This document shows, in pieces, positions 4,837-54,400 of a stretch of DNA of 64,000 nt (position 1 is the stretch's first letter; every line of letters starts with the position of its first letter). The notes below the pieces were generated by a model. That model was not told the DNA's origin. It worked only from the letters and a program-made list of their open reading frames with translations, and searched no databases. This DNA is from a virus: positions 1 through 64,000 of the IMG/VR virus record IMGVR_UViG_3300030385_001875. One strand, 5' to 3'. The position numbers were made by a program, and so were the translations under genes.

Positions 4837-5250
4837 ATGGAAGACCAGTTTATTGTTAGCTTTAATGACGAACTTCATCCTGAAGGGGAGTTCAGGGGAG
4901 TTATTGGTGATGTAGAGGTCGATGAGGGGCAGTTCGGAAGACAATACAAGTTCCATATAGATACAAATGAATCAGAAAGAGCCCTTTGGTTATGGACACA
5001 ACTAAAGACGGGTGAGACCAGCAAATTAGGCAAACTGTTGATGGCACTCAAGAACTGTAACTACAAGGAACTGATGGAATTTCTGTCGAAGGATGGGGAT
5101 AACCCCGAATTTGATGTCAGAAACACTATCGGGGCTGCATTAATGGTAACAGTTGAGCATAAAGAGAATCAACAAGGGCAAGCCAGAGCGTATATAACAG
5201 ATTTTAAGGGTCTGGAAGGTGATATCGAGCAAGAGGAGATACCATTTTAA
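4837..5250 (+). CDS. Putative single-stranded DNA-binding protein
   Basis: 137 residues, preceded by AAGGAG. The best clue is the C-terminus: an acidic run ending in EEIPF, matching the D/E-rich IPF tip by which bacterial and phage SSB proteins recruit partners. The N-terminal part alternates short beta-like segments (GEFRGVIGDVEV, QYKFHID) compatible with an OB fold. It sits between replication genes, and its stop overlaps the next start by one base. I infer SSB function from the tail and the context; a different small replication accessory protein remains possible. Confidence 0.55.
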   Translation: MEDQFIVSFNDELHPEGEFRGVIGDVEVDEGQFGRQYKFHIDTNESERALWLWTQLKTGETSKLGKLLMALKNCNYKELMEFLSKDGDNPEFDVRNTIGAALMVTVEHKENQQGQARAYITDFKGLEGDIEQEEIPF

Positions 5251-29332: not shown

Positions 29333-29960
29333 ACTGGAAATAGGTGGTGGGAGTAACCCTGCTGAAGGGTACTTAAACCTCGATATCAACGCTGATTGCA
29401 AACCTGATATAACAGGAGATGTGAGAGCGTTCTTTACACCTGATGTGGATCTGGAAGATTATCCTGATTTAATGGGAATCGATGAGTTTGTGTTTGACGA
29501 AATCAGGGCGACACATTTCGTTGAACATATCGAGTGGATATACCAGAAACCCATGTTTGAATGGTTTTACAAGGTATTGAAACCAAGCGGTAGAATTGTA
29601 ATAGAGACCCCTAACTTGCACTGGATAATAAAGAGTTACCTTAAAAATTATGGTTCAGGAGAGTATCCCCAAGAAGACCACCCTGACCTTAACGGTACTA
29701 ATGATTTTGTCCCTTGGGTTAATTTTAAGCTGTTTTCTGGTTGCAGTCCCGGTGACTATCATCATGCTATGTTCGACAAAGTTTGGATGAGACGGGTTTT
29801 AAAAGAAACAGGGTTCACTCCTACGGTAAAGGCGAAAGGGGCGTACATACAGGCTATAGGGGTCAAGAAGGATTTGGGTTTGCCAGAGGAAGAGTATTAT
29901 GTTCCACGAAATAATCGAAGATGGTGGGATGCGTTTAAGATGGGGCAGTGGATAAAATGA
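29325..29960 (+). CDS. SAM-dependent methyltransferase
   Basis: 211 residues, start overlapping the GT9 gene. Motif I KLEIGGGSNPAEGYLNLDI, then IRATHFVEHI and FYKVLKPSGRIVIETPN, are typical of class I methyltransferases acting on sugars or small molecules (predicted SAM-dependent methyltransferase group). Located between two glycosyltransferase-like genes, it probably methylates a glycan or a precursor. Confidence 0.75.
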   Translation: MDKLEIGGGSNPAEGYLNLDINADCKPDITGDVRAFFTPDVDLEDYPDLMGIDEFVFDEIRATHFVEHIEWIYQKPMFEWFYKVLKPSGRIVIETPNLHWIIKSYLKNYGSGEYPQEDHPDLNGTNDFVPWVNFKLFSGCSPGDYHHAMFDKVWMRRVLKETGFTPTVKAKGAYIQAIGVKKDLGLPEEEYYVPRNNRRWWDAFKMGQWIK

Positions 29961-34067: not shown

Positions 34068-36425
34068 ATGACGATGACGGCAAACAATAATGTCAGGGAG
34101 CGAATACAAAAATCTTTCACTGACGCTGCAAAAAAGACAGGGGTTCCTGTTAAGCTTCTGAAGATGGTAGCAGCGATAGAAAGTTCTGGACGACCAGACG
34201 TTACGTCCGAAACAGGTGCTCAGGGTGTCATGCAGATAATGCCTAAAACCAAAGAAGATATTATCAAGAGACTGGCCCCTAAAGGAGCATTCCCTACGAA
34301 TGCAGAAGGATGGGATACAGGGAATGTTGAACAGAATGTTCTTCTGGGAGCGTATTACTTGAAGGATATCTTGGGAATGAAGGGTATTGATAATGATTGG
34401 GAACGGGCTATGGCTGCATACAATATAGGTCCCGGGAACAGATGGATTAAAAAACCAAACTGGAAAGAAGATAAAAGGTACAGTGCTGCTCGGATGGGGT
34501 CTGAGAATTATAGTGTTAAGACCTATATTGACAGAGCAAACCAGCTAGTCGGAGACAGGGGATGGAGCGATGTTCCTATGTCATCAGTAATAGGAGGTGG
34601 TGGGTCTGGGATGCAACCTGCTTCAGCACCACCTGCTTCAGCACCACCTGCTTCAGCACCACCTAATGCTCCTGCTGCTGGAACGGACATTAACCGTACT
34701 CTTAACCCCCCATCGCAATACGATCCTTTAGTAACAGAAACTGATGCACCTCCTGTATGGAACGAGCCAGCATTAGATCCTTATAGTGAAAGAAACTATG
34801 AATCTGAGATTGCTGAACAGGCAAGAAACTTTATCGATACTAATAAGTACGTAAATAAGCTCTATCAGAACGAAACCCCTGAACAACAAGCGATAAGGCG
34901 AGATACGTTAATAGCTACGTTAAATCGGGATACAGGAATTGGAGGAGACGCTGTAGATTTGTCTCAGGTTGATGATACGAGGAGCCCAAAAACAAGCTTT
35001 GAAAGCCTTGAAGCCTTACCCGCAAATTTTGGGGCTTACGCAATGGGGGGAGAGAATCCTACAAGAATAGGTCTCACTTCAAATGAGCCTATGAGTTGGG
35101 ACCAACAAGTTCGGACACATGTCCAATCGGAGAACCCATTTCCAACAGAGTATAACAAAATGGGTTATGGAGAACTAACAAGGGATACCTTTCAAGGGGG
35201 ACAAGATACATATAAGCCTCTATCTCCGATTGGATCACAGGCTGCTGCGAGTCCTCAAGTTGGAGCACAGGCTGCTGCGAGTCCTCAAGTTGGAGCACCT
35301 ATCGGACAGATGCAGACGAATATTCCTCAGGGGCTTGAGATCCCACCAGTGAATTATGGGTACACTTCTAATATAGATAAGTTTATGGAAGGGTATGAGC
35401 CGGGAGATATCACTGCTGCTTCTACTGCACCTCCTCTTTCTACGGATACTACTACTGCTGCTGCTTCAACTGATCCTGCTGCTGCTTCAGCATCCCAACC
35501 TGTTGACCCTTTAGTCAAGATAGCAGCGAAGCTGGGCTTTAGTATCCTGCCTAGAGGTGGGGGTAACGAAAAGAAACATATGGATTTCTCTTCTGTGACA
35601 GGAAGTGATAAACCTGAAGAGCAATCTTGGCTGAGAAAAGCGTGGGAAACAGGTGAGAAGTATCTTGAACCTGTAGCTGAATACGGTAAGTATCTTCCTA
35701 TCCCTTATGTTCAACAAGGACTTACTGCTATTGACGCTATGTATGATGCGGAAGACGCAGTCACCGCTGCTAACAGGGGAGATTATCTCGGAGCGGTGAT
35801 GGAAGGATCAGGAGCCGTCGGTGGAGCTAAAGATTTTCAAGCGTTACAGCAGGGTGGAGGACCTAATCCTCTCAGCGGTTACAACTTACTGGGAGATCAC
35901 GCTGAAAGTAGTGATCTGATGAAAGGGATACAGAAAACTGCGACTAAGATCGGGACAGATGTTGCAGGTAAAGCAATCTCGGGAGGATACGGTGGTGGTA
36001 GCGGGGGAAGAGGATCAAGTTCTCCTTATATGGATCAAGCCGATAGTGCTGCTAACAGGTATCGACAACAAGCCCAGAGAGCAAACCAAGATTATCAAAG
36101 GTTAACAGGTGGTAGACTTTCTGCTCAAGGGATACAAGGACCAACACGAGAAGGTATTATAGGTCGTCAAGCTGCTAACTTAACATCTGCTACTCAACAA
36201 AACGTAACAGGTCTTTATAACCAAGCAGCTTATAGGGAACAAACAGCAAATATGATGAGAGATCAGGAAGATAAACGTAACTGGATGGGGTTACTTGATA
36301 ACCTATCTCAGATCTATGCGATTTCCGAAATGGATCTCGGGGATGACACAGCAACGACAACGGAAGAGAACCCCTTGGGAAACTTCACCTCTCAGATCTT
36401 TAGTATTCTAGAGGAGGAGATATAA
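34068..36425 (+). CDS. Ejection protein with N-terminal lytic transglycosylase domain
   Basis: 785 residues. Residues about 15-150 are a Slt-type lytic transglycosylase: AAIESSGRPDVTSETGAQG with the catalytic Glu in IESSG, then GVMQIMPKT and AMAAYNIGPGN. The remaining sequence is low-complexity (Ala/Pro/Gln) and helical. Such proteins are packaged with the DNA and open the peptidoglycan so DNA can pass. The gene lies between the nozzle gene and two further ejection-type genes. Confidence 0.8.
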   Translation: MTMTANNNVRERIQKSFTDAAKKTGVPVKLLKMVAAIESSGRPDVTSETGAQGVMQIMPKTKEDIIKRLAPKGAFPTNAEGWDTGNVEQNVLLGAYYLKDILGMKGIDNDWERAMAAYNIGPGNRWIKKPNWKEDKRYSAARMGSENYSVKTYIDRANQLVGDRGWSDVPMSSVIGGGGSGMQPASAPPASAPPASAPPNAPAAGTDINRTLNPPSQYDPLVTETDAPPVWNEPALDPYSERNYESEIAEQARNFIDTNKYVNKLYQNETPEQQAIRRDTLIATLNRDTGIGGDAVDLSQVDDTRSPKTSFESLEALPANFGAYAMGGENPTRIGLTSNEPMSWDQQVRTHVQSENPFPTEYNKMGYGELTRDTFQGGQDTYKPLSPIGSQAAASPQVGAQAAASPQVGAPIGQMQTNIPQGLEIPPVNYGYTSNIDKFMEGYEPGDITAASTAPPLSTDTTTAAASTDPAAASASQPVDPLVKIAAKLGFSILPRGGGNEKKHMDFSSVTGSDKPEEQSWLRKAWETGEKYLEPVAEYGKYLPIPYVQQGLTAIDAMYDAEDAVTAANRGDYLGAVMEGSGAVGGAKDFQALQQGGGPNPLSGYNLLGDHAESSDLMKGIQKTATKIGTDVAGKAISGGYGGGSGGRGSSSPYMDQADSAANRYRQQAQRANQDYQRLTGGRLSAQGIQGPTREGIIGRQAANLTSATQQNVTGLYNQAAYREQTANMMRDQEDKRNWMGLLDNLSQIYAISEMDLGDDTATTTEENPLGNFTSQIFSILEEEI
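34617..34661 (+). repeat. Three tandem 15-bp repeats in coding sequence
   Basis: CCTGCTTCAGCACCA is repeated three times in frame, encoding a PASAP-type linker after the transglycosylase domain. Likely a flexible linker that can vary in length by slippage. Confidence 0.8.
35237..35296 (+). repeat. Two tandem 30-bp repeats in coding sequence
   Basis: A 30-bp unit is exactly duplicated in frame and encodes a Gln-Ala-Ala-Ala-Ser-Pro-Gln-Val linker. The identity of the copies indicates a recent duplication. Confidence 0.8.
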
Positions 36426-36426: not shown

Positions 36427-38124
36427 ATGGCTAAGTTTACAGAAGCTGAACTTGGATTGGGCGCATCAGCTATCGTTAAAAACATAATGACTTACAAGAC
36501 GATGGCAGATAAAGCTCGTACAAGTCGAAGAAGAGACGAAAGTAAACAGCTTTTTCAAAGAGCGAATTTAGAGCTTGATAAGCTAAAGACCGTGATCGAT
36601 GTTAAAAAGCTCCAACAGGATCAAGCATACAAAAAAGGTATCCTAGCCCATCAGGACAAAATTCTTCAGTTTAAACTTAATAATGAAAACAGCGTAGAGA
36701 ACAGACAGAAATCTGTTCAGAGTCTAATAAAAAATGAAGCTGTCGGCTTAACTCCTGCACAGATAAAGAACCTCCATATCTGGGCAGCTACAGACAACTC
36801 TAGTTTAATAGATGACATTCTTTCTGGACCTCAAAGCAAGCAACCTAGTGTTAATGATAGAAGCAATTTAAATAAATTGGGAGTTGACCTCCAATCCGAA
36901 GTACACGGGGTTCCTGCTACAAAGTCCCAGCAAGAGGCAGAGGGCTATGAAGGTGGGGGGTACGCATCCCGAAAGCATAAACCTCTCTCAGACCTAGTTA
37001 AAGATTACATTACAGATTACAATACTCCCGACGAAACTCGGGCTTTAGTTCACAAAGTAAGAAACTTGCAGATGCTGGTAAGCAATTTTGCTAAACCTGA
37101 GAATGCACGATGGATAGGTGGTTCAGAAGATATGGCATTAGACCAAATTGAAAGAGCGTTAAGTTCTCTCAATACTGTCGAAAACCCGCTTAACCCTAAA
37201 CAGGGTCGGCACGGTTTCATGTGGCATAAAAAGGCAGGAGGCCAGATAACCGACAAACTAGCTAAAGAAGCTGGGCAACAGTTTGGTCAAGTATGGAATA
37301 CTGCTGCCGACTATGAAGTGGGAATGGCAAAGGAACTGAACAACCTGCGATTAATGGTTAAAGCTGCAAAGGGTAAAGGACAGCCCCAGCAACAACAAGG
37401 ACAAGCCCAGCAACAACAAGGGCAACCCGGAGAACAGAAAGTCCGTGAAGGTGCAGCAACAGATATATGGAATAGCCAATCGGAAGCTCTTAAGGAAGAG
37501 GATCAGGGTGGGCTTTCTAGTAAAATGACGGAAGGTGTCGGTCCTAGAGATAAGGATCAGCCTAAAGTTTATGAGAAGCTAAGTCGTAGACAGCAAGGAA
37601 GATCAGGTCGTGAAGGAGATCTAGGGGACACGACACAAAATCCTGCTGTTTTACGAGCGCATCTGGGAGAAGACATGACGAGCGAGGAATCATCTGGAGA
37701 TTACCATTTCAAACCAGAGGGTAATAGAGGGCTCATCAAGGACGTAGTAGATAAGGCAGCATCATTTTGGAATACTAGAGGAGGTCAAGAGCTCGAGATT
37801 AAGGACCGCATAAATTCTATCCAAACGATGGTGACATCTCTTGAAAGGGGTGAAGGTCCTCCTAGACATCAGAAAAAAGTATTTGAAGATATGATGAGTT
37901 ACGCTCACGCTCTAGGTTGGCCTGAACCAGAACAGTCAGACTTAAGACTTTCTGAAGAATGGAAATCAAGGATGTTAGCCTTACTCAAAAAATTCACTCG
38001 AAAAGAGATTAAAGCACCTACAGAGAGAAGAGACATGAGTGGAAGTCTTTTAAAAGACACACAAGGTCAATGGTACAACAATATCAATAAGGGGGGTAAC
38101 AGTGGCTACCAACAAAACTACTGA
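36427..38124 (+). CDS. Internal virion (ejection) protein
   Basis: 565 residues, GGAGGAG ribosome site. Highly charged and helical, with a Gln-rich repeat (PQQQQGQAQQQQGQ) near residue 320 and no recognised enzymatic motif. It is sandwiched between the transglycosylase and the giant protein and overlaps the latter by 23 bases, so it is probably an ejected core protein. The assignment is by context. Confidence 0.55.
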   Translation: MAKFTEAELGLGASAIVKNIMTYKTMADKARTSRRRDESKQLFQRANLELDKLKTVIDVKKLQQDQAYKKGILAHQDKILQFKLNNENSVENRQKSVQSLIKNEAVGLTPAQIKNLHIWAATDNSSLIDDILSGPQSKQPSVNDRSNLNKLGVDLQSEVHGVPATKSQQEAEGYEGGGYASRKHKPLSDLVKDYITDYNTPDETRALVHKVRNLQMLVSNFAKPENARWIGGSEDMALDQIERALSSLNTVENPLNPKQGRHGFMWHKKAGGQITDKLAKEAGQQFGQVWNTAADYEVGMAKELNNLRLMVKAAKGKGQPQQQQGQAQQQQGQPGEQKVREGAATDIWNSQSEALKEEDQGGLSSKMTEGVGPRDKDQPKVYEKLSRRQQGRSGREGDLGDTTQNPAVLRAHLGEDMTSEESSGDYHFKPEGNRGLIKDVVDKAASFWNTRGGQELEIKDRINSIQTMVTSLERGEGPPRHQKKVFEDMMSYAHALGWPEPEQSDLRLSEEWKSRMLALLKKFTRKEIKAPTERRDMSGSLLKDTQGQWYNNINKGGNSGYQQNY

Positions 38125-41100
38125 GTCTCTTATATTTGGGGGGCAGACATATTCATATAAACTTCCTCGAGACCTTACTGAAGAAGAACAAGTTAGGATT
38201 AGCAGCTACACAAAGACTTTCCCTGAACTCGAGCCTTTGATTCAACAGAGACTTAACGATAAAGGGGCAGATGAGCTTATGAGGTTTTTTGATAGGCTCG
38301 ATACCCCTGAGAACATAATCAAGTCCATTAAAAAGGTTCAAAGCGGTGAAGTAAGCTCAGAGAGATTTTATGGAGACATAGCAGCAGGAACACAGACAGG
38401 TCTTGCTGCTGACCAATCACTAGGTGGGACACTTAGAGCAGAGGCTACACAGAGAGCTCCACATTTGGTGAAAACGTTCGCTAAGAATTCCCGAGATATC
38501 ATGGTGAACCTGAAAGAAGACCCTGTTAAGTTCCTTAAGGAAATCGGTTGGTCTATGATAACCTCACCTATTGTCATAGCAGCAGGTGGACTTGAGACAA
38601 CAGGGAAACTGTTTTCTGGAGATTATGCGACTGATCCTGATTGGAGTTGGAGACCGTTAACAGGTACAGGTGAGAAAGGGAAAGGGGTAGGGTTAGCTGG
38701 TGCTTTACAATTTGTACCTATGCTTGGTGCTGCTACCAGAGCAAGCCGATGGGCAAGGAACCTGAAAGGGTTCAGTGCAACAACCAAAGCGGGTAAAGTT
38801 ATGAGCGGAGCGTCAATAGCTCTAGGTAAAGCTGCTCGGTTTACTCCTGAAAGGGCTGTAGGGTACAAGCTTTCTAACACTCTTGCTGATTTACCTTTAG
38901 CTTGGAGAGATGCACTTTCAACCGCTGGTAACCTCGCTGAAATAGATCCTCTTGAACTAGTAGCTGACCTGCCTTTCCAACTGATGTTGAATGCTCCTCA
39001 GAGAATAGGTCTTCCTACCTTTGCCAGATACATTAAGAAGAGACAACTCAGGAAACAGGCAACCCAAGCAGCAACCCAAGCAGAAGCTGCTGCTAAAGAT
39101 CCTACACAGGTTCATAGGGCAGATATCACTCCCGAAAACTTTGATGAAGAGTTTTCTAACCTGATTGATACCATCACAACGATGGCAGAAGAAAAGGTAG
39201 GCCCAAAAGGTGTTTACACACCGTATAGAGATTTCCTGATGAATCTGGGTGACCAGCTTACGGAAATGGAGATGACTCCTGAAGGGTTAACGGAAGCTAG
39301 ACATCTCGTTGATGCTGCTAAAGAGGTTATCGATGAACTCACTACTAACGTCAGATCTATACTTGAAAACGCTGAACAACATGACCAAGTTCAGGAGATG
39401 CGTAGAGGGCAAGGATGGGGCGAAGAAGAAGTTAAAAATGGACTATCTGTTGTTGCAGCCACGATTAATCAGGAAATACAAAGATTAACAGAAGCTCCGT
39501 TCGCAACCAAAGGAACTGTAACAGCAGAAGAAGCAGAGGGAGTAAAAGCAGATAACGCTAAAAGATTAGAAACCCTGAAAGATGCTTTAGGGCAAATCAG
39601 CGGGTTTGAGCCCACCTTAGAAAACCTTACCTTGGCAGAACGGTTGATGGAATTTACTATCGATCCAGCAAACGTTGGGTATGAGGGTATAGGTGAAAGC
39701 ATCACCTCCGTAACTGAACATCTAGAAGAGTTAGCTTTAGGGTTACTTAGTAACAGTATGGGACAACAAGCCAAAAGCGGTGAAGTGTTAGATGATATTT
39801 TTTCGGACTTCCCGTTTGAAGCTTATACAGATATGAGTCGGTTCTCTAACCGTCCTTTCAGGTTCATAACTGCTCTTGATCAGATGGCAAGCGAAGAACT
39901 GGGAAGAGAAGCTACCAGAGCAGAAAAAGACGCTTACACTCGACGATTCGCTGCTAGTCTTATTAAGATGGCTGGAGCACTCCGTAATGATGGACCTACA
40001 ATGACCACGCTTGTTAATAGTGTTAACATTATTCGTGAGATTATTGCTGGAGTCTTCTCAACACCAGAGAGGACTCAAGGGTTACTTGAAACTGATGTTG
40101 CTTATATTCCTCAAGGACCTGCTGTAGTAGGGAAACCTTATTCAGGTTGGAATCCTCCCACTGAACAGGAGGCAACGCAGGAAGTAAACGAGGAGGATAA
40201 AGATGTAGAGGTAGAGGAAGAGGTAGAGGAAAAGGTAGAGGAAGAGGTAGAGGTAGAGGAAAAGGTAGAGGGAGATGTAGAGGAACCTGCACCTATTCAC
40301 GTCTCCCTAGATGACATCCTTGCAGACGACACAGTAGTAGCAGACGACACAGTAGAAGAGGTAGAGGAAAAGGAAGAGGTAAAACCACTTACGGGTAAGA
40401 TCGCAGCAGAAATAGATAAGTTTGGCGGTCTTGATGACATGTTTAGTGCTGCCCCTTCAATGGCAGACGAAGAATTACGTTCACAAACCCCTCTTACTGA
40501 TGCTCAAAAAGAAGAGAAAGCACGTCAATTCGCCTTAAAAATTGGAGTGCTACTCTTTAAGGAAAAGGTCAATGATTTCGGTGAATTTCTCGACTCAATG
40601 GTGGAGCTCCTAGTAAAAAGCCCTGAAGATATCCGCAAACTTGAGATAATGAAGGGGCCTATGGTATCTACTTGGGGGCAACTGCAAGGAGAGGCATATG
40701 GGAAAGGAGACACAGATTTTGCCAACAGCATGACACCATTAGCAGAAGTTGCTGCCTTGGTAGATAAAAGGATGTTTGATCTAACAGGTGAAGCTTTAGA
40801 AGAAGGAGATGAAGATGAATCCAGTGATGATGCTGGTCCAGAAAGGACGGGAGCTCAAGGAACGAGAACGGGTATTCAGGGAGATGCAGAAGCAGGAGGA
40901 GGAGAAGCAACGGATGGAGAAACTGTTTCAGGAGACAGAGGAGAAACTGAAGGAGACCCAGTTATTGGGGACGAAAGAGTCGGAGAAGATATTGCAGTCG
41001 ATCCAGAACCATCTCCAGAAGAAGGCCCCGTAGAACAACCCAAACAACCTATTATCCAGAGAATTAAGGATTTCTTCTTAACACCTGTCAGTCAGTCGGA

Positions 41101-44100
41101 TCGTCGTGTTCAGCAAGAGTTATCAGAACAGAAAGAACATATATCCTATCAAGCTCAAGACATCTTAACCCCTGATGGGGAATATGCGTTCGCTAATGAA
41201 GACGGGACTGATGCTGCCCATGACCATAAAGCGAAACTGGTTACTTCTTCCACTCTAGGTATGACAGTCTCCCCGCAAATAACTTATATTCCTGAAGGGC
41301 TAGACACAAATGTACAGGTCGTAACAAGGGATGAGACAGGAGCGATTGTCAAAGATGCAGAAGGTAATCCTGTCTCCGAGACAAAGAACATTGTTAGGGA
41401 CGGGTTACTAAGTAAGGTTCAGTTAGAAGCTATAGCTGTTGCAGGACAAACATGGTTGACACGAACGTATCAAGGGTTCCGCAAAGCGATAATGTGGGGA
41501 CACGGAACAGGTTCTGGTAAAGGAAGAATGATTGCGGGTGCTATCGTAGAGGCTTTCTCTAGAGTTCCCTCAAACGGGAAACGCAGGGCTTTATGGATAA
41601 CAGAATCTAAGTCGTTAGCTGAAACTGATGCGATGAGAGACTGGGAAGCTTTAGGCCAAGATCCCGAAATGATCTTCAATTTTGATAAAAGTAAGTGGGA
41701 TAAAAAGACAGCCAACACTACCAAGAGAGATGAGCAGGGTGTCACAGGTAACGTGGTTAACTTCTTACCTGATGAAGGGGTAATGACTATTACCTATCAT
41801 TCGTTGGGGTCAGGGGGAGGAGCAATTTCTGATATATTAAAGAACACTAATTTGTCTACTGAAGAAATGGATCGACAGATAGATGAAATTCTCCAGAAAA
41901 AGAAGGGGACCCAGTATCACAATTTAGTTACAGTTTTGAACTGGTTAACTTTTGGAGAGAAACAACGGATTACTTCTCACAAAACGATGAAAGATTCTCA
42001 TCTGAAATGGAAAGATTTTAGCGGTGTTATCGCTTTTGATGAAGCTCATACCATGAAAAAAGTGGGGACAGGAGCAGGGGCGGGAAGTAATGCGATGATA
42101 GCATTAGGGCTCCAACACCAAACACCTGAAAGCAGAATAGTTTATGCTACTGCGACGGCTGCATCTGAAGTAGATAATTTCCGTTATGCTTCTCGATTAG
42201 GGTTATGGGGTGAAGGGACAGAATTCGATAACGCTGATGATTTCATTACACATGTAGGTCGAACAGGTGTGGCAGGGCTGGAAATCCTAACTAAAGACAT
42301 GAAAGCGTTAGGTCTTTATGTTGCAGCACAACTCAGTTTTGAAGGTGTAGAAGTTGATCCTCTTCATATCGAATTAGATGATCAAGAGATAGAACGTTAT
42401 AACACTTTCGTTAAAGCGTTAGATGACGGGTATAAAGTTCTGGAACAGATTCTAGCTGACAACAGGATGAACCTCAGTAAAAATGATATAACCCAGATGA
42501 GGAGTCAATGGTGGGGCGAACATCAACGACTCGTTAATTCCTATCAAGCAGGATTGGTCACCAGTCAGATGCTGGACGATTTCCAGAATAACTACGGATC
42601 TGAAAACTACACCCCTGTTTTCCAGATGATCTCTACTGGAGAAACATCGTTTGAAAGAAGTATTGACAGGTTATTGTCTAACCCTAAATATACTGACAAG
42701 AACGGTAATATCACTATTCCGCAAGACGAAAACGGTAATTATATTCTATCTGAAGAGATGGTTAATGAAATCGATATTACAGGGAAACAAGATCTCATAG
42801 CCCAGATAGATAAGATGACAGATATACGTCCTTGGTCTGTAGGGCCTGACGGAGATAAGTCTATAAGTGCTAATCGGAAGGATGATTTAAAAGCTGATGG
42901 ACAAAAGTATGGGGCTGAGATACCCGCACCTATAGAAGACCTTGTACTGATTAAGGCCCGATTAATGGAAAGTCTCGAAACTGTTACACTTGCCACAATG
43001 CCGTTACATAGTCTCATAGAACATTTCGGTGCTGAGAACATAGCAGAAGCTACAGGAAGAAATCGAAGACTTATTAGCCGACCTAAAAAAGGTGGAGCAG
43101 AAGGTGAAAGAGAATACATTATAGAGAGGCACGGAAATAAAGGGAAATCGTCCGATATACTGGACTTCAAAAACGATGACAAAGAAGCTATTGTCTTCTC
43201 TATAGCAGGTGCTACAGGGCAAAGCTATCACGCTAGTAACGAATACAAGAACAAACGACAGCGAGTTCATTACGTCCTGCAACCCGGATGGGAAGCTGAT
43301 AAAACAATGCAGGGTTTCGGTAGGACTAACAGGACTGATCAGGCATCTGCACCTATCTATCGTATTCTTTCAACCAACCTACCTTCTTCCAAAAGGTTTT
43401 CTTCTGTTATTGCTAAAAGACTGCAAATGTTAGGAGCGTTATCAGAAGGAACACAAAAAGCTGGTGCAGCAGAGATGTTCTCAGGGGCTGAAAGTATCCT
43501 GCTAACACAAGAAGGAGTTCAAGTTTTAAGGAACTTCATCCGTGATACATGGTTCCGTTCTACTGGAACTGGTTGGAACCCTAGATCTCTTGCTAATCAA
43601 GAAATTATAAACGATTACTTAATAAACTTACAACATGAACCTGAAAAGACTCTTGTCCTAAGTAATCCCGACGGGTCATTATCCAAGCTTCAGAGCCTAG
43701 AAGTAGAGACAGGACTTGACTTAACAGAATTAGCGCAGATAGAGACAGACATCTCGTTAATCACGCAGGTATATGAAGCAGTAGCAGAACAGTTCGATTT
43801 CGCTAACGAAGCGTATAACAGAATGGGGTTAGAATGGGATATAGCAAATCAGGATGAGATTAATAGTGATCCAATGACTGATCCAGTATACATGCCTGTT
43901 CTTGGAGGCGGTACTGTTGATATGTCTCAATGGTTAAACAGGATGATGACACTTCCTTTCGGTTGGCAGAATTCTATTTTCGGTCTTATTGCGGGTAGAA
44001 TACAATCAGAATGGGATCAAGCGTTATCATTGGGGATTGCTGACACGGGGATTGAATCTGTAACAGCACATAAGATTAAACTCAATCCAAAGATGGAAGA

Positions 44101-47100
44101 TGTCCCTATCTTCACAGGAACTGCTGCCCAGACTTTTGCACATCAAGTAGACTTGGAACTTCCTCAAACAGAGACTCGTCTTTCAGGTATCGTTGAAAGG
44201 TTGAGAAACAATCTAGCTGAGTACCGAACCTTCAAGGGAATATTTAAAGATGGAGACGGTCAAGTTATGGCAGCATTCGCCAGTACTGTTTTGGAAGGGG
44301 AAGAAAGAAAAGGCAAGATCACAGCTATCTATCCGTCAAGGAAAAATGACTCAGCTTTGAAGGTGGTGGGTAACAACATGTCTTTATTTTACCTTGATGG
44401 CATCACCCAACTCATCAGCCGAGAAGAGTTCTTGAAAAACTTTGTGGACGGGGAAAGCGTTATTAGCCCTGATTGGGATGGGTCTCCTATGATGAACACT
44501 CCTTTTGGGCAAGAAGGGAGAGAAGGGCTTCAAAGAGGTGTTGAAGAATGGGTTAATCAACTGGTCGATGGGTATACTAAAAACGCTGTCGGTGTCCCCC
44601 TCCCTGAAGGGCAAACAAATAAAGATGCAGAAGGTAATCCTATATCTCTATACAAAGAGTCTCGGTGGTACATAACAGGAGCGCATCTACCTCTCTGGAA
44701 AAAGATAATGCCCAAATCAACATCGAGAGACAAAAAAAATGCTCCCCTCCCTATTATCAGAAGAATCTCCTTACCTTTTAAAGACGGTACTCAAGAACGA
44801 ATAGCTGTAGAAATAGCATCAAATAAGCTTTTTACCACGGCAACCGCTGAAGTAAAGGCGAAAGCTGTTATGGGGGCAGTAACACCTAAAACAAAGTATA
44901 TGGACAAAGACGCTCCTCATTTTGAAGGGGTGATTGATGAAGCGACAGGTATTTATCACGAACTTACCAGATGGTTTGACGAAGCATCTGAAAAAAAAGT
45001 ACTTGTATTGACTGACGGTTCTGTTCTGGTAGATTATCCTTATCAGTCTTTTGATTCTGAATCTGGACAAGAAGCAACTTTACACAGAATATACCTGTTT
45101 TCAGCTAAAGAAAACCCTCAAGTGCAAAATGAGATAAATTCTTCGGATAATTCTTTCTTTGTCTCTGAACATGCAGGGTTAGGGTTTGAAAGTGAAGGAA
45201 GAACAGACGATTTCCGTAAAAATGTGGAATGGTTCAAAGATAAAGGGTTCATTATTCATGCTGAAGAAGGGCAGTTAGTTCTCCCTTCAAGTAGGCACGA
45301 CGCAGTTAAGGCTTTAGCTAACGTTCTAAATGAGTTCTATATAGATCATGGACACATTGAAGGTACTGTTCATAAGATGTTCCCTGCTTCAACATTAAAA
45401 GCTTCAGCTTATAAACCTATCTATTTTGACACTCTTCCTTCAATGGAAACCCCTCCTGTAGGTCGTGTCTCAGAAATGATGTTTGACAGCATACCGCAAA
45501 TGTTAACCTCGGGCTTTGTTGTCAATGATGATCTTACTGGGGAACGCAAAGTGCTTTTCAACGCTGGGGAGACCAAGGTAGGTTATCCGGGGCACGAGAG
45601 AAACTTAAACGTAGACGACCTGTTTGCTAACGAGGAAGATATTAAGTGGATAGAGGAAAAACAACCCAATATAGCTGAATTACTCTTTTTTGAAGAGATG
45701 TGGGATGACGTTCCTCCTTCTGGAGGGTTCCGAGACCTGAGCTCAGGAGATCCTGTTTCTGGGGGCTATTTAAATAGTGGAGTTCAACATGTCTCAGTCC
45801 ATTTCTTAGGAGGTAAAACAGGAACTCACTTAGCGGAATACGGGTATATGGTAACTGTTTACAGACCATTACAGAAAAACCCTGAAACAGGTGAGGAAAT
45901 CGCCCATAGTGTTCAGTCAGTTATTGTTCCTGCATATGTATCTAAAGATGGTACACCCAAATTCCTAGAAGAAAACATGTCGGAAATGGAGAATCTTCTA
46001 GGCTCAAACAGACACTCAGAAAACCAACCCACAACAATCTTAAAAAGATTTAGTGGAAACCTTAACATACACCCGACAAGCAGGACATCTCGCAGAGTGA
46101 TGCAATTCCTGAATATCGCTATGCTGCAAGAGAAGAAAAGAAACATGGAACACAGGGCTGGACCTTTTGATCCGACACGGACTAAAAGGGTTTTTGATCA
46201 CGGGGATACAGGGCATGAAAAAACTGTTTACGCAACTGAAAGCGTTCCAGAGAACCTGTTTAACATGGCTGGTAGATTCGCTAAAGTGTTAGGGTTCCAT
46301 TTCGGAACAAACAAACACCTTGCTCCCACAAATCTCAAAGACACGCAAAAGGTACTGTGGGAGGACGAAGCTGGGAAACACAAAACCCACCGAGAAATAA
46401 GACAACGTCCTCAAACAGCTTCAAAGATACTTATCTATACCGACGTTGATTCAGGAGAAGCTGCTTCTTCTTGGGTAGAAGTAGATAGCATTAAAGATGG
46501 TCAAGGAACTAAGTACCGTAACTCTTTAAACATAAGAATGCCGTCAACTTATACCAGAGCATCTACCTACGACCATCATCCTGACCATGCTGAAGCTAAA
46601 ATCACTGTTTCACCTGCAACTGCTGCTAGGTTTAGGTTGAAAGCGTATGGAAGTTACTGGAATATCTTCTCTCCTCTAAGAGGAGAAGATGTTATGGGTA
46701 AATTCACACCTAATCTCGGTAACAGTAGAACTGATGGCTCCATATGTTTCAGGACACAAACCGCTGAAGACTCAACAATAGATGAACCTCAACAAGTAAT
46801 GACGTTAGCCCATGAAATGGGACATGCTTTTCACTACACGGTACTTGACTCTTTAAACTGGCAGTTCCAAGAACCTCTCTATCACTTGTTCAGAAAACTA
46901 CATGCTAAGATAGGTAAAGAAAAATGGACGGAAGAGATGCTCATTTATGCAGCGTCTAATCCGCAATATGCTAAAGACTTTTTAGAAGCTTTAAAAGCTT
47001 ATGATTTACCTCCAGATTCGCTCACAGACCCCGACAAAGTTAGAGCAGCACTCATTGCTGAAGGGGAACGGGGTGGAGAGTATGCCCAATACCTTTTAAG

Positions 47101-50100
47101 CCATGTGGAGTTGTTCGCCAACCAAATAGCTAAATGGGCTTTAGATGTCGGTGCTCTGGATAAAGATTTCCAAAAAGCCAGTAACAGTATAGATCCAGAT
47201 AAACGTCCGTTCTTAGCGATACTCAAGGAAGTGTTTAAAGACATTATCAAGTCGCTTAAAAAACTTTACAACGAAGTGCTAATCGCCTTAAAGGTACGTT
47301 TTCAAGGTGACTCCAGAAGCGAAGGGTTGGAATACCTAACAGTAAAACCGATGGTTTCATTTGCTGAATGGATGGACAATTGGGTTACAAGAGTAGAAGG
47401 TCACCGAGAAACAAAAAGAAAAACAGCAGGTGATGTAAAAAGGTTCTTTACATGGAAAAAAGATGATTACAACACTCTAAGAATCTTGCCAGAAGACCCT
47501 ATACTCCCTGATGAAGTTAAAGATGACCCTAGAGGAAAGATAGAAGATCACCAGATACCTAAAAGTGTCTTTGGAGAAAACGGAGACGCTAACGTTTTCC
47601 CGCAAGGGCTCGAACAAATAGATGTAGCTAGAGCGATGGCTCGTCGAAATATCTCCCCTGCTCCAGACAGTGATCCCGCAAGGGCAGAAGAAATTGAGAG
47701 TATGGCTATGGGGACAGGAGACTTTGTTAATAAAGCTAGAAATGTTATGGGTGAAGCGTGGAAAAAGGGCTGGCTTCCTATTGAACAAAAAACAGGGGCG
47801 GGTGACTTTTTCTTCACGATGGCTGTCCAACTAAGGAATCGAGGTTACGGATGGATGGTGGACCTCATAGAAGAAGTCAGGGATAACTCCCAAAGAAAAT
47901 GGGGGGAAGCGAACATCAAGATGTTAAAAGGTGAAGCCGAATTGCAGGGTGGATTCTGGAAGGGGTGGTACAGGAAATTCGGGGTCTATAATATTAAGGG
48001 AGTAGGGGTCCCAAAGAAGAACCAATACATGAAAGATGTAATGCCCCTGATTCGTAAGTTTATGGAGACAGGATATGAAAGGACATATAATAAAGGAACG
48101 AAACACGAACGACAGTTTGATGAAGAAGGTAACCGACTACTGCATCCTGTTGTTGTTGGGATTGACCTTAAAACAGCTTGGGGAACATTGGCAACATCAG
48201 AACAACGACGACCCGCAAAAACAGAAAAAGAAGCGTACCAATTGTTACTCGCTCATATCTCACACGTAGCGGAAGGTAAGGAAGAAGCGTTACTAGCTCC
48301 AGTTCTTGATATTGTCGCAGCGTGGAAAGAAAATAGAGAAGAGTTAGCTAACAAGATATTAGAGATCAGTGCCACTAACAAAGATATGGGTAAGTTAGGG
48401 GAGAAAGTAGATCCTGACGAAGAGTTAGCTGAACTGCTTATGTCTATAGCATTAGGCCCAGCTAACGGTAATAACCCTCCAGCAAAAGCGCAACTGGCTA
48501 ACTTACTTAACTCTAATTTTGGTGTCAGTATTACACCTGAACTAATCATTAGAGAAGCTACAAAAGATAACCTTATTAAAAGAGGTGTCTTGTTCCTTGT
48601 CCAAGATGTCGCTAATCAATACGCTGTGGCATATGATAACGGGAAAGTAATAATATATGACCACAAAAGAATGAGAGACCCTGTTTGGTTATATGACGGA
48701 AACCTAAAAATTAAGAGCGAATGGTCACCTCACAAAGCGGATTACTTACCTCACATGTTCGATCTGGAAAAATTGGGGATGGACAACCCAGCTTCCGCAA
48801 AATGGAAAGCTAGTGTTAAAGCTTTCATGGATGCGAACCCTGACAAGAATTGGGATGAAGCTATGGCAGCACAAAAGCTGTCGAGTTATATCGTAAATTC
48901 AAGGAGTAACAAATTCGGTAACCTTGAATTCACAAGAGAATACAATATCCCTTGGTATGAAGAAGACTTCTTTAAAATCACTTCAATCTACTTGTCCCGT
49001 GCATGGAGACGGGCCTACGAGATAGAGGCTTTTGGTCAAAACAACGAAATCTATGAAGAGATGATGCTCGACTTTGCTTCGGGCCAAACAGACACAAGAT
49101 CTGTATCTCCAAGCCTGTTCAAGCTCAATAGACAACATAAAGCGACCCGTAAACTACGAGATGCGATGGGGTTCAACACCCCTTGGGCTCAAAGTTTACG
49201 GGGGTTGATTGATAACGCTATGCCGTTAGCAGCAGAACAAGAGAGAGGGTCTAAACTCTACTCAACTTTCTTTAACCCTGAAACAGGTGAACCGTACCAT
49301 CTTAACAAAGATGAACCTCAGTTTCAGTATATGTCACTTAGGGATTGGGAGACTCTTGAAGAGGCAGGGATTCTTAACGCTAACAGGGATAATGCGGGTA
49401 ACATTCAGTCATATAATGCTGTACCAGAAACTGCACACGTAGTTAATGCGCTCTTCGAGATAACTCCTGAAGGTATTGATAACGACAGTATAGCACGAAA
49501 GTGGATTGATAGGCAGATAGGAAGCGTCCATTCCTCCAGTGAAGAACGTCGGTTAGATGATCTGTATAAAGAGTTAAAAACGGCTGCTGCATGGGCATTC
49601 CTTTCCCGAGCATGGACTTCTAATATCTCTCAACCAGCGAACGCTGTCAGGTGGACAGGAATGCGGTCTTTCTTGGAAGCTGTCCGAGACATCTTCAAAG
49701 AACAAGACCGAGATTGGGCTGCTGCCACAGGTGCATTAACCAGTGATATCGCTGCTTTTTACAGTGGAGGTGTTTTCAGTGCTGATGTCCTTCTTCGTAG
49801 ATGGACACCATTCCAGTTTATTGAAGCCAAGATTAACCGTCAAATCTCAGCACTTGCTGGTAGAAACTATCTGGTAGTAGCATTAAAGAAATTCCAGAAG
49901 AACCCTGATGCCAAAGAATTACGACGGTTTACGGAACTGGATTTAGTTAGGTTATCAGATGAAGAGCTCGGTGCACTCGGGGCAACAGCAACAGAGAAAG
50001 ATATCGATAGAGCAAAAGCAGAGAAAACAAAAGAACTGCTTTTTGATGCTATAGGTGAGAACGGGGTTACAGAAGAAGAGATCAATATAGCGAAAAGCTT

Positions 50101-50878
50101 TGCCTCAAATGTTCTTCCATACGTTACGAAAGATGCAGACGGAAAAGCTGTCCTAACTGAAGAGAAGGATAGTAACGGTAACCGTATAGTTAAAGGTGAC
50201 TACACGCATCTCCAAAAACTTTCGCAAATAATTTCGAGAGGTGCGTTACGGATTTCAAATAAGACCCAGTTCAAAACAGAACCTATCGATCTTCCTCCAT
50301 CGTACACTGCATCTCCTCTGGGTAAACTGATGGGCCAGTTTACAACGTTCACCATCAAACAAGCACAGTTCACTAAAGATGCGCTTTGGAGAGATTGCAA
50401 GAACTTCAGGAACGATCCGTTCGGTGTCCTACCTCCGATGTTGTCATTTCTAGTTGCAGCAGGAGGTTTGGGAATGGTGTCCAATATCATTGGTTCACTG
50501 TTCAACGCTGATATAGACGAAGCTAAGAAATGGATCTATGAATCAAACGAAATTCAAAACCTTCTTGCACACTGGAACCGAGCAGCAGCGTTTGGAGCAA
50601 TCTCCTACTTATTAGATGTAGGGAATATCCCGGGAGCAATAGGCGGGTTCTTTAGTATCCGTGCATTCGGCCTTGCTGAAAGGTTGTACAGGTATCCACA
50701 GAAAGCTCCGAGACTAATCCCTGTAGTTGGACCTGCAATACAAACAACTTTAGATAGAGGTTTCAAGGAAGGTTTCTGGGGAGGAGATGAAGATTACGGT
50801 ACTCCTGCTATGAATCAGGTTATGGGAAGAAGAGGCCGAGGTGGGGGTAGAGGTAGAGGCAGAGACACACGGAGATAG
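38102..50878 (+). CDS. Giant polyvalent ejection protein with strawberry-notch helicase and HEMGH motif
   Basis: 4,258 residues, GTG start with a GGGGGG-rich ribosome site. The N-terminal about 700 residues are helical, with a hydrophobic stretch near 155-170. An acidic Glu/Val linker (about 700-760) and a charged Gly/Glu linker (about 900-980) follow. A superfamily 2 helicase of the strawberry-notch type spans about 1,100-1,800: Walker A GHGTGSGKGRMIAGA near 1,133, FDEAHTMK near 1,312, YATATAASE near 1,350, and motif VI GFGRTNRTDQAS near 1,738. HEMGH (2,904-2,908) is a zinc-metallopeptidase-type motif in TLAHEMGHAFHYT. Later there are helical segments, a hydrophobic stretch near 4,110 and a final Arg/Gly-rich tail. 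Like P1 DarB, which also carries a strawberry-notch-like helicase, it may be injected to protect incoming DNA; here I see no methyltransferase motif. Confidence 0.75.
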   Translation: MATNKTTESLIFGGQTYSYKLPRDLTEEEQVRISSYTKTFPELEPLIQQRLNDKGADELMRFFDRLDTPENIIKSIKKVQSGEVSSERFYGDIAAGTQTGLAADQSLGGTLRAEATQRAPHLVKTFAKNSRDIMVNLKEDPVKFLKEIGWSMITSPIVIAAGGLETTGKLFSGDYATDPDWSWRPLTGTGEKGKGVGLAGALQFVPMLGAATRASRWARNLKGFSATTKAGKVMSGASIALGKAARFTPERAVGYKLSNTLADLPLAWRDALSTAGNLAEIDPLELVADLPFQLMLNAPQRIGLPTFARYIKKRQLRKQATQAATQAEAAAKDPTQVHRADITPENFDEEFSNLIDTITTMAEEKVGPKGVYTPYRDFLMNLGDQLTEMEMTPEGLTEARHLVDAAKEVIDELTTNVRSILENAEQHDQVQEMRRGQGWGEEEVKNGLSVVAATINQEIQRLTEAPFATKGTVTAEEAEGVKADNAKRLETLKDALGQISGFEPTLENLTLAERLMEFTIDPANVGYEGIGESITSVTEHLEELALGLLSNSMGQQAKSGEVLDDIFSDFPFEAYTDMSRFSNRPFRFITALDQMASEELGREATRAEKDAYTRRFAASLIKMAGALRNDGPTMTTLVNSVNIIREIIAGVFSTPERTQGLLETDVAYIPQGPAVVGKPYSGWNPPTEQEATQEVNEEDKDVEVEEEVEEKVEEEVEVEEKVEGDVEEPAPIHVSLDDILADDTVVADDTVEEVEEKEEVKPLTGKIAAEIDKFGGLDDMFSAAPSMADEELRSQTPLTDAQKEEKARQFALKIGVLLFKEKVNDFGEFLDSMVELLVKSPEDIRKLEIMKGPMVSTWGQLQGEAYGKGDTDFANSMTPLAEVAALVDKRMFDLTGEALEEGDEDESSDDAGPERTGAQGTRTGIQGDAEAGGGEATDGETVSGDRGETEGDPVIGDERVGEDIAVDPEPSPEEGPVEQPKQPIIQRIKDFFLTPVSQSDRRVQQELSEQKEHISYQAQDILTPDGEYAFANEDGTDAAHDHKAKLVTSSTLGMTVSPQITYIPEGLDTNVQVVTRDETGAIVKDAEGNPVSETKNIVRDGLLSKVQLEAIAVAGQTWLTRTYQGFRKAIMWGHGTGSGKGRMIAGAIVEAFSRVPSNGKRRALWITESKSLAETDAMRDWEALGQDPEMIFNFDKSKWDKKTANTTKRDEQGVTGNVVNFLPDEGVMTITYHSLGSGGGAISDILKNTNLSTEEMDRQIDEILQKKKGTQYHNLVTVLNWLTFGEKQRITSHKTMKDSHLKWKDFSGVIAFDEAHTMKKVGTGAGAGSNAMIALGLQHQTPESRIVYATATAASEVDNFRYASRLGLWGEGTEFDNADDFITHVGRTGVAGLEILTKDMKALGLYVAAQLSFEGVEVDPLHIELDDQEIERYNTFVKALDDGYKVLEQILADNRMNLSKNDITQMRSQWWGEHQRLVNSYQAGLVTSQMLDDFQNNYGSENYTPVFQMISTGETSFERSIDRLLSNPKYTDKNGNITIPQDENGNYILSEEMVNEIDITGKQDLIAQIDKMTDIRPWSVGPDGDKSISANRKDDLKADGQKYGAEIPAPIEDLVLIKARLMESLETVTLATMPLHSLIEHFGAENIAEATGRNRRLISRPKKGGAEGEREYIIERHGNKGKSSDILDFKNDDKEAIVFSIAGATGQSYHASNEYKNKRQRVHYVLQPGWEADKTMQGFGRTNRTDQASAPIYRILSTNLPSSKRFSSVIAKRLQMLGALSEGTQKAGAAEMFSGAESILLTQEGVQVLRNFIRDTWFRSTGTGWNPRSLANQEIINDYLINLQHEPEKTLVLSNPDGSLSKLQSLEVETGLDLTELAQIETDISLITQVYEAVAEQFDFANEAYNRMGLEWDIANQDEINSDPMTDPVYMPVLGGGTVDMSQWLNRMMTLPFGWQNSIFGLIAGRIQSEWDQALSLGIADTGIESVTAHKIKLNPKMEDVPIFTGTAAQTFAHQVDLELPQTETRLSGIVERLRNNLAEYRTFKGIFKDGDGQVMAAFASTVLEGEERKGKITAIYPSRKNDSALKVVGNNMSLFYLDGITQLISREEFLKNFVDGESVISPDWDGSPMMNTPFGQEGREGLQRGVEEWVNQLVDGYTKNAVGVPLPEGQTNKDAEGNPISLYKESRWYITGAHLPLWKKIMPKSTSRDKKNAPLPIIRRISLPFKDGTQERIAVEIASNKLFTTATAEVKAKAVMGAVTPKTKYMDKDAPHFEGVIDEATGIYHELTRWFDEASEKKVLVLTDGSVLVDYPYQSFDSESGQEATLHRIYLFSAKENPQVQNEINSSDNSFFVSEHAGLGFESEGRTDDFRKNVEWFKDKGFIIHAEEGQLVLPSSRHDAVKALANVLNEFYIDHGHIEGTVHKMFPASTLKASAYKPIYFDTLPSMETPPVGRVSEMMFDSIPQMLTSGFVVNDDLTGERKVLFNAGETKVGYPGHERNLNVDDLFANEEDIKWIEEKQPNIAELLFFEEMWDDVPPSGGFRDLSSGDPVSGGYLNSGVQHVSVHFLGGKTGTHLAEYGYMVTVYRPLQKNPETGEEIAHSVQSVIVPAYVSKDGTPKFLEENMSEMENLLGSNRHSENQPTTILKRFSGNLNIHPTSRTSRRVMQFLNIAMLQEKKRNMEHRAGPFDPTRTKRVFDHGDTGHEKTVYATESVPENLFNMAGRFAKVLGFHFGTNKHLAPTNLKDTQKVLWEDEAGKHKTHREIRQRPQTASKILIYTDVDSGEAASSWVEVDSIKDGQGTKYRNSLNIRMPSTYTRASTYDHHPDHAEAKITVSPATAARFRLKAYGSYWNIFSPLRGEDVMGKFTPNLGNSRTDGSICFRTQTAEDSTIDEPQQVMTLAHEMGHAFHYTVLDSLNWQFQEPLYHLFRKLHAKIGKEKWTEEMLIYAASNPQYAKDFLEALKAYDLPPDSLTDPDKVRAALIAEGERGGEYAQYLLSHVELFANQIAKWALDVGALDKDFQKASNSIDPDKRPFLAILKEVFKDIIKSLKKLYNEVLIALKVRFQGDSRSEGLEYLTVKPMVSFAEWMDNWVTRVEGHRETKRKTAGDVKRFFTWKKDDYNTLRILPEDPILPDEVKDDPRGKIEDHQIPKSVFGENGDANVFPQGLEQIDVARAMARRNISPAPDSDPARAEEIESMAMGTGDFVNKARNVMGEAWKKGWLPIEQKTGAGDFFFTMAVQLRNRGYGWMVDLIEEVRDNSQRKWGEANIKMLKGEAELQGGFWKGWYRKFGVYNIKGVGVPKKNQYMKDVMPLIRKFMETGYERTYNKGTKHERQFDEEGNRLLHPVVVGIDLKTAWGTLATSEQRRPAKTEKEAYQLLLAHISHVAEGKEEALLAPVLDIVAAWKENREELANKILEISATNKDMGKLGEKVDPDEELAELLMSIALGPANGNNPPAKAQLANLLNSNFGVSITPELIIREATKDNLIKRGVLFLVQDVANQYAVAYDNGKVIIYDHKRMRDPVWLYDGNLKIKSEWSPHKADYLPHMFDLEKLGMDNPASAKWKASVKAFMDANPDKNWDEAMAAQKLSSYIVNSRSNKFGNLEFTREYNIPWYEEDFFKITSIYLSRAWRRAYEIEAFGQNNEIYEEMMLDFASGQTDTRSVSPSLFKLNRQHKATRKLRDAMGFNTPWAQSLRGLIDNAMPLAAEQERGSKLYSTFFNPETGEPYHLNKDEPQFQYMSLRDWETLEEAGILNANRDNAGNIQSYNAVPETAHVVNALFEITPEGIDNDSIARKWIDRQIGSVHSSSEERRLDDLYKELKTAAAWAFLSRAWTSNISQPANAVRWTGMRSFLEAVRDIFKEQDRDWAAATGALTSDIAAFYSGGVFSADVLLRRWTPFQFIEAKINRQISALAGRNYLVVALKKFQKNPDAKELRRFTELDLVRLSDEELGALGATATEKDIDRAKAEKTKELLFDAIGENGVTEEEINIAKSFASNVLPYVTKDADGKAVLTEEKDSNGNRIVKGDYTHLQKLSQIISRGALRISNKTQFKTEPIDLPPSYTASPLGKLMGQFTTFTIKQAQFTKDALWRDCKNFRNDPFGVLPPMLSFLVAAGGLGMVSNIIGSLFNADIDEAKKWIYESNEIQNLLAHWNRAAAFGAISYLLDVGNIPGAIGGFFSIRAFGLAERLYRYPQKAPRLIPVVGPAIQTTLDRGFKEGFWGGDEDYGTPAMNQVMGRRGRGGGRGRGRDTRR

Positions 50879-51810: not shown

Positions 51811-52746
51811 ATGAATAACCTAGCATTGACAAATCAGGAATTGGTAAAACCGATATCAGTGCTCTTCAAGGACAGGGTTTATCCTATCCATGTCAAGTTT
51901 AACCCCGCTACTGTTTGTAATATTCGTTGCACTTTCTGCAATAATGATGATTATAATTATTTGAGTCCTGATGCTAAAAATCTGGCAAACATCCCAGATA
52001 CCATCAAGATGTTTAAAGGGTTGCGTGATCGTGGCACAAAGGCTGTTAGTATCGAAGGTGGTGGTGAGCCTACAGTTCATCCTGATTTCAACTTACTGGT
52101 TTCATCATTGGCAGGTTTGGGTCTTGAGGTAGGGTTGTTAACCAATGGCACTCGATTAAAATCAATTGAGCCTGTGATGGGCTTGTTCACTTGGGTAAGG
52201 GTAAGTTTCTCTGATGAATATGAAGATATAACAGCAAATGACCTGACATTGGACCTAGTTCTGGATCAGGTCTCAAGCTGGATAAAAACTGAGCAGCAGG
52301 TCGATATCAGTTTCAATTTCGTGGATATGGGGATCGATAACGTTATATGGGACGGGGTTGTTGAGTTCATAGCCGAACATCAGGGATACAGCAACTTCTT
52401 GGGGATGAGGGTCTCACCTGATGATACTCAAGATAAAGGATTGACTAAAGAGTCTGATCTTGAAAGTGTTATCTTTACAGGGGGAGTAACTGAAGACACT
52501 CCCATACCTAAAGGGGGTCGATGTAAGGTAGGGTTAGCCAGACCCGTGATAACCCCTAATCATACGGTATACGCTTGTTGTCGCCTGATGGAAGGGTTCA
52601 ACTTCTCTGCACCTTATAAAGAAGACATCTTAACGATAATTGATAAGCAGATAGAATACACATGTTCTCTTACCGAATGCCCTTTCAACAGCTTAAGAGA
52701 GACCCTAAACAGTATTGACGAGGTGAGGCATCCGAATTTTGTTTGA
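51811..52746 (+). CDS. Radical SAM protein
   Basis: 311 residues, with AAGGAGG upstream. CNIRCTFC (residues about 36-43) is the CxxxCxxC that holds the 4Fe-4S cluster and cleaves S-adenosylmethionine. GGGEPTVHPDF near 90 is the usual GGEP strand. The C-terminal cysteines (GRCKVG, CCRLM, CSLTEC) suggest a SPASM-like auxiliary cluster, typical of enzymes that modify peptides or sugars. First gene of a four-gene cassette with a glycosyltransferase-like protein, a methyltransferase and a sulfotransferase. The substrate is unknown; a glycan or a peptide is possible. Confidence 0.8.
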   Translation: MNNLALTNQELVKPISVLFKDRVYPIHVKFNPATVCNIRCTFCNNDDYNYLSPDAKNLANIPDTIKMFKGLRDRGTKAVSIEGGGEPTVHPDFNLLVSSLAGLGLEVGLLTNGTRLKSIEPVMGLFTWVRVSFSDEYEDITANDLTLDLVLDQVSSWIKTEQQVDISFNFVDMGIDNVIWDGVVEFIAEHQGYSNFLGMRVSPDDTQDKGLTKESDLESVIFTGGVTEDTPIPKGGRCKVGLARPVITPNHTVYACCRLMEGFNFSAPYKEDILTIIDKQIEYTCSLTECPFNSLRETLNSIDEVRHPNFV

Positions 52747-53758: not shown

Positions 53759-54400
53759 ATGGAAACGTTGACCGAGGTAAGGAATCACTGGGTTGAAAAG
53801 GGTTGGCATATTGGTAATCAGAAGTCGGGGATAGGTTATTTGGAGAATTTTTATGATAAGGTTTTCCCCCCATTAAGAGAAAATTGCAAAGCCTTATTGG
53901 AAATAGGTGTTTGGCATGGAGGCAGTTTAGACCTATGGAGGGCATACTTTCCTGACGAAACTGAAATATATGGTATCGACAATCTCCCAGAAAACGTCCT
54001 CTATCGTTCAGAGGTAGAGGGTCACCACCTCGAAGGTGATGAAATTAAAGGGGCAACGCTTATTGTAGGGGATGCTTATTCAGATGAAGTCGTGAACCAG
54101 CTTCAAGATAACTATTTTGATATTATTATAGACGATGGTAACCACGCATATACGTCTTGGGAAATCCTGATAGTCAAGTATTACCCTAAATTAAAGACTG
54201 GGGGAATAATGATTATTGAAGATCTGATGTCCACCCTCGATATTGGCTCCACGGAGAGGGAATCTTTAAAGGCTAAGGCAGAAGAGGTGGGATTTTCCTC
54301 TGTTGAAGAGCACGATATGAGTGGATTCGCCAATGGTGCACATTTTGATAATAACCCTATGCTTCAGGGGGAGACTTTTATATTAAAACTAGAAAAATAA
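53759..54400 (+). CDS. Class I SAM-dependent methyltransferase
   Basis: 213 residues, ATG preceded by AGGAGA. ALLEIGVWHGGSLDLWRAYF is motif I, followed by IYGIDN and YFDIIIDDGNHAYTSWEI, then KTGGIMIIEDL. This matches Methyltransf_24/cephalosporin-hydroxylase-like proteins found in polysaccharide loci, so glycan methylation is likely. The next gene starts at the following base. Confidence 0.75.
   Translation: METLTEVRNHWVEKGWHIGNQKSGIGYLENFYDKVFPPLRENCKALLEIGVWHGGSLDLWRAYFPDETEIYGIDNLPENVLYRSEVEGHHLEGDEIKGATLIVGDAYSDEVVNQLQDNYFDIIIDDGNHAYTSWEILIVKYYPKLKTGGIMIIEDLMSTLDIGSTERESLKAKAEEVGFSSVEEHDMSGFANGAHFDNNPMLQGETFILKLEK

Follow-up and report, generated by a model that had tools for sequence, protein, structure and literature searches.

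A giant polyvalent DarB-like phage protein with a strawberry-notch motor and without a methylase partner

We describe a phage gene (positions 38102–50878, + strand) whose 4,258-aa product is, judged by its sequence, a polyvalent DarB-like giant with a strawberry-notch (SNO) motor and without a methylase, a new variation of this type of protein. Each of the 160 SNO relatives whose upstream sequence was long enough carries a fused adenine-type methyltransferase. The methylase-helicase pair is a main theme of polyvalent proteins (Iyer et al., 2017; PMC5512222), and it was proposed that a helicase-dependent enzyme methylates the injected DNA (PMC5512222). The role of the DarB-type helicase has so far been tied to its methylase partner; a natural intact motor without a methylase separates the pair, so that protection or import by the motor alone becomes testable.

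Genome and late gene module

The window, i.e. the whole stretch of DNA analyzed, comprises 64,000 of the 64,904 bases of an IMG/VR virus record. Its first 135 bases recur at 64770–64904 with 99% identity, forming a direct terminal repeat, and a second IMG/VR record of 47,310 bases has the same circular gene order across the repeat junction. Therefore, the 64.9-kb genome is essentially complete. Although the record is classed as linear, the 135-bp repeat points to a genome that is circular or has terminal redundancy.

The late module contains a terminase-like gene followed by genes for a P22/SU10-type portal protein (11596–13383, + strand), a major head protein (14818–15879, + strand), an SU10-type adaptor and two large tail proteins, each of some 1,450 aa. 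It ends with the genes for a T7 gp16-like transglycosylase and a 565-aa protein and with the giant gene, smaller genes being interspersed, an order that resembles those of Parlo and BcepIL02. The two large proteins (1,423 and 1,476 aa) are encoded at 18412–22683 and 22694–27124; eight separate segments of the 1,423-aa protein match phrog_9224, a pattern suggestive of internal repeats. The lytic transglycosylase or internal-virion-protein gene (34068–36425, + strand) has a T7 gp16-like N-terminus (phrog_342, E = 6.5e-21). The first-pass annotation had placed the giant gene after this transglycosylase; the phrog_342 match upholds the late virion context. A 565-aa gene (36427–38124, + strand) lies in between, directly upstream of the giant gene. 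In position it is like the virion-associated gene before BcepIL02 gp70, and no similarity was detectable between the products of these two genes.

It should be mentioned that the window also contains a gene at 27093–28256 with a strong match to tryptophan halogenases (phrog_2928, E = 1.8e-74), and that the small genes after it include a SAM-methyltransferase-like one. Downstream of the giant gene lies a radical-SAM-like gene (51811–52746; E = 7e-6), and a methyltransferase-like gene is located at 53759–54400 (phrog_21658, E = 1.7e-18). The 1,216-aa protein encoded at 888–4538 contains DUF3854 at residues 229–333 (E = 1.2e-12), and we read it as a TOPRIM-like primase that also includes a helicase-like portion. 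In the protein encoded at 5250–6482 a DUF559 (restriction-endonuclease-like) segment is joined to a helix-turn-helix domain.

The giant protein, its motor and its HEMGH region

The giant gene is one open frame from a GTG start to the stop codon. Its start overlaps the preceding gene by 23 bp, and a Shine-Dalgarno-like GGGGGG, read by eye, is located just 5' of the GTG (38091–38096, + strand). A twin of the protein with 97% identity over the full length is encoded in the second, independent IMG/VR record (3300025267_000021); IMG/VR scans with single proteins as query returned this twin only. All of the elements listed by the first-pass annotation could be located in the ORF: GSGKG at residue 1137, DEAH at 1313, GRTNRTDQ at 1740, HEMGH at 2904 and the Arg/Gly tail.

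No domain or distant homologue was recognised when the N-terminal region (residues 1–690; 38102–40171, + strand) was searched. It is followed by an acidic low-complexity segment (residues 690–1036; 40169–41209, + strand), which occupies the place of the adenine methyltransferase of relatives, and by the motor. Near the C-terminus lies the sole strongly hydrophobic segment of the protein (residues 4116–4134; 50447–50503, + strand), a possible site of membrane insertion, and the last 18 residues form an Arg/Gly-rich tail (residues 4241–4258; 50822–50875, + strand). In about 3,000 residues no domain could be recognised, and the main function may therefore reside in them. PHROGs and NCBIfam yielded at most a weak stretch, over HEMGH, and a Pfam scan did not find any of the named LPD domains, which are common in the polyvalent class and not required for it. 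Matches to PDB sequences were dismissed as chance.

The assignment to SF2 strawberry-notch helicases was borne out by the domain search. The two halves of the SNO helicase, AAA_34 (E = 2.7e-65) and Helicase_C_4 (E = 1.2e-52), were both detected by Pfam, and the motor comprises residues 1037–2033 (41210–44200, + strand). Motif I (GTGSGKGR, residues 1135–1142; 41504–41527), motif II (DEAH, residues 1313–1316; 42038–42049) and motif VI (GRTNRTDQ, residues 1740–1747; 43319–43342) are all on the + strand. In an alignment of the window protein with four plasmid SNO proteins (30–35% identity) motifs I, II, V and VI form gap-free cores, and as far as can be read from these residues the ATPase motifs of the motor are intact. 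The SWI2/SNF2-related SF2 motor of the DarB dyad is present, in its SNO type. As in the polyvalent class, a very large ORF adjoining virion genes combines unrelated enzyme domains, the second of which is a prediction.

This second domain is a predicted zincin metallopeptidase-like region (residues 2835–3030; 46604–47191, + strand) around HEMGH (residues 2904–2908; 46811–46825, + strand). By composition, 0.11 HExxH motifs are expected in a protein of 4,258 aa, so that HEMGH alone is weak. When compared by hhalign with 19 zincin segments of relatives (the polyvalent MPTase cluster), the region gave a probability of 87.7%, driven by the match of LRGEDVMGKF...HEMGH with VRGKGVLGQF...HEIGH, and HMMER against the same zincin family gave E = 0.47. 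The candidate third zinc ligand is Glu3003 (47108–47110, + strand) in YLLSHVELFANQIAKW, at +99. In other viral zincins this stretch lines up with YWGNPKELLARAAEAW, and Glu3003 with the Glu of ELLAR in polyvalent ones; another alignment prefers E2962. Two AF2 predictions of the region reached pLDDT values of 31 and 48, too poor to use, and Foldseek with the predicted low-pLDDT structure returned no match. The earlier description of HEMGH as metallopeptidase-type has some support at the sequence level. The fold was not confirmed by AF2 or Foldseek; the region is probably a zincin.

In comparison with the twin gene, dN/dS values of 0.38 (motor) and 0.26 (HEMGH region) contrast with about 1 in the acidic linker and 1.3 across residues 2034–2640; for the whole gene it was 0.53 with a dS of only 0.026 (in total 137 non-synonymous and 72 synonymous changes). 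With so few substitutions the low values in the motor and zincin region are only suggestive of constraint. At the DNA level the giant gene is 97% identical to its twin, against 77–96% for most other matched blocks of the two genomes. Given this high identity and the low dS, it looks as if the gene had been recently exchanged or swept.

Distribution of the methylase and avoidance of restriction sites

SNO relatives were collected from IMG/VR and from 84,980 species genomes with the helicase motifs as the sole criterion. In total 165 SNO ORFs were obtained, 160 of which match a methylase profile made from the viral relatives (158 of these also have NPP[FYW]). Four of the remaining five end before the methylase place, and the fifth, without a methylase, is the twin of the window protein. 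The 160 relatives (77 viral, the others from plasmids, genomes and one isolated phage) come from partly redundant records, and 36 relatives are left when the pattern-scan set is held at <55% identity.

As a control independent of these motif patterns, 1,088 bacterial genomes of three phyla were searched with Pfam AAA_34. The methylase was fused or adjoining for 44 SNO ORFs: fused in 41, in an overlapping frame in two and as a separate upstream ORF in one. One further SNO gene was broken, and its upstream sequence was too short for a judgement. This gene and the one with the separate upstream methylase ORF had at first looked methylase-free. In the locus L285 (G841:C2:207500-216000), from a genome sampled in the same phylum as the cyanobacterial locus L108, separate ORFs encode the methylase and the SNO helicase. 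They are 1.7 kb apart, and an opposite-strand ORF of 409 aa lies between them; perhaps the gene was split by an insertion element.

The NPPY/F motif of the methylase half of the DarB dyad is absent from the window giant protein. In the window, the methylase profile matched nothing but a stretch at the SNO domain's start, and it had no match in the remaining 0.9 kb or in the twin genome. A methylase located in another part of the protein, of the window or of the last 0.9 kb was thereby ruled out. The first-pass annotation had pointed to P1 DarB as a model of counter-defence; with the methylase half absent from both protein and genome, DarB-like protection in the published sense is not supported.

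Judged by its distribution and by the outgroup, Bacteroides phage BS-TP4, which has a methylase, loss of this domain would be a simpler reading than an ancestral methylase-free state. In the tree the window protein sits on a long branch (1.61; median 0.57) that joins another long one, that of the outgroup, so that its exact place is unsafe. The linker motif HxxKLVxS...P...Y.P is kept in the window protein. We set it aside as proof of methylase loss because SNO domains of methylase-free proteins also have this stretch at their start.

Among the 256 tetramers, depletion in the window genome is strongest for CGCG, CCGG and GCGC. CGCG does not occur in the whole genome (52 expected under a maximal-order Markov model) or in the twin record (46 expected), and CCGG and GCGC occur 33 and 28 times (98 and 63 expected). 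Therefore, at least one restriction threat has been met by removal of sites and not by the giant protein, and the complete absence of CGCG suggests a kind of restriction outside the cover of this protein. Palindrome depletion was rejected as a mark of methylase loss: the ratio for six-base palindromes is 0.71 in the window genome, and methylase-bearing relatives avoid them too (median 0.77).

Possible function and relation to known systems

Burkholderia phage JC1 gp69 (4,515 aa, 22% of the JC1 genome) was detected in CsCl-purified virions by mass spectrometry with 51 unique peptides (PMC9144972). For P1 DarB, packaging operates through the N-terminal 30 residues, and the protein is believed to pass into the cell (PMC9024508), and injection was predicted for the polyvalent class by Iyer et al. 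(PMC5512222). The giant gene and JC1 gp69 have equivalent genomic positions. As there is no detectable homology to BcepIL02 gp70, the virion property is transferred by analogy, and on this footing the giant protein is probably a virion component that enters the cell together with the DNA. The likeness to podophage DarB-like proteins holds in size and position, one of these proteins, JC1 gp69, being virion-associated by mass spectrometry (PMC9144972).

We consider the chances about even that the product is an injected, virion-packaged polyvalent DarB-like giant without a methylase partner, with its motor acting early in infection. After ejection, the SNO ATPase would move along the incoming double-stranded DNA and clear or block DNA-bound host defence enzymes, with type I-like restriction complexes as the precedent. 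The zincin-like region could cut the polypeptide to free its parts or to mature the giant protein, and the hydrophobic C-terminal segment and the N-terminal region may serve packaging or envelope passage. Protection would then come from the motor and not from DNA methylation. More tentatively, the motor ATPase alone might provide the early-infection benefit, by removing defence enzymes from the phage DNA or by pulling this DNA in, while type II restriction is met by elimination of sites such as CGCG. Sequence matches to homologues of tested function are confined to the motor.

The main rival, which we regard as rather unlikely, is that the injected SNO ATPase, together with the transglycosylase and other ejection proteins, reels the genome into the cytoplasm, counter-defence being secondary or absent. 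Translocation on double-stranded DNA is a property of SWI2/SNF2-type enzymes (Iyer et al., 2017; PMC5512222). Such a role does not need a methylase, and it accords with the T7 gp16-like ejection gene close by and the hydrophobic C-terminal segment; however, retention of the methylase by the relatives suggests that the family usually serves in marking or protection. Moreover, no podophage is known in which an injected helicase serves DNA entry. As SNO domains form a general DNA-motor family, the protein might instead be made late and stay unpackaged as a DNA or transcription remodeller inside the infected cell, but the late structural operon position and the presence of JC1 gp69 and P1 DarB in virions make this improbable.

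Two further readings seem very unlikely to us. The motor could be paired with a host methylase or with small phage methyltransferases, as the window has two SAM-methyltransferase-like genes (29325–29960 and 53759–54400); yet NPPY/F is absent from both products, and the profile of the SNO-linked methylase matches neither of them nor any other ORF in either genome. The long branch and the overall dN/dS of 0.53 would suit a relic drifting since the loss of the methylase. Against such decay, the 12.8-kb frame is intact in two records with the catalytic motifs kept, and dN/dS is lower in the motor and zincin region than in the linkers.

The claim that this is one of the largest phage proteins proved overstated: 21 of 56 complete viral SNO ORFs (median 3,915 aa) have at least 4,258 aa, and the longest SNO ORF that we met, itself cut at one end, has 6,252 aa. 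A size record was rejected, since longer viral SNO ORFs and phage proteins exist (also PMC9144972, PMC6630229).

Among known systems, the best matches to the helicase (30–35% identity) are the MTase-SNO proteins of conjugative plasmids (Sulfitobacter, Methylomonas and others), which differ in their size, mostly about 1,400 aa, in the fused methylase and in the plasmid context. The sole isolated-phage match for the helicase is BS-TP4 gp3 (5,391 aa; 26% over 182 aa), a giant like the window protein and encoded beside the portal gene, but with an NPPF methylase and with the six-residue HEAVAH in place of HExxH. P1 DarB shares the SF2 SWI2/SNF2-type motor, the counter-restriction precedent and the status of a virion protein; it differs in its mass of about 250 kDa, its combination of methylase and helicase and its other SF2 subfamily (PMC5512222, PMC9024508).

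The Bcep22-type DarB-like proteins (JC1 gp69, 4,515 aa; BcepIL02 gp70, 4,667 aa; Parlo, 3,764 aa; Atu_ph08 gp21, 4,877 aa) have, unlike the window protein, a helicase of non-SNO type, and they show limited sequence similarity or none; blastp of the window protein against BcepIL02 gp70 gave no significant match, and gp70 has no SNO domain. BcepIL02 and Parlo keep the methylase motifs NPPF/NPPY, which the window protein lacks. Like the window protein, they take up about one fifth of a roughly 60-kb podophage genome at the end of the virion module, and HExxH was present in both of those checked. From the polyvalent proteins of Iyer et al. (PMC5512222), represented by 77 IMG/VR loci, the window protein differs in that all 77 have an NPP-type adenine methylase directly before the helicase, and the LPD38 profile built from these relatives has no match in its C-terminus. 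It shares with them the giant single ORF with an SNO helicase, and 37 of the 56 complete viral ORFs likewise contain HExxH or HExxxH downstream of the helicase.
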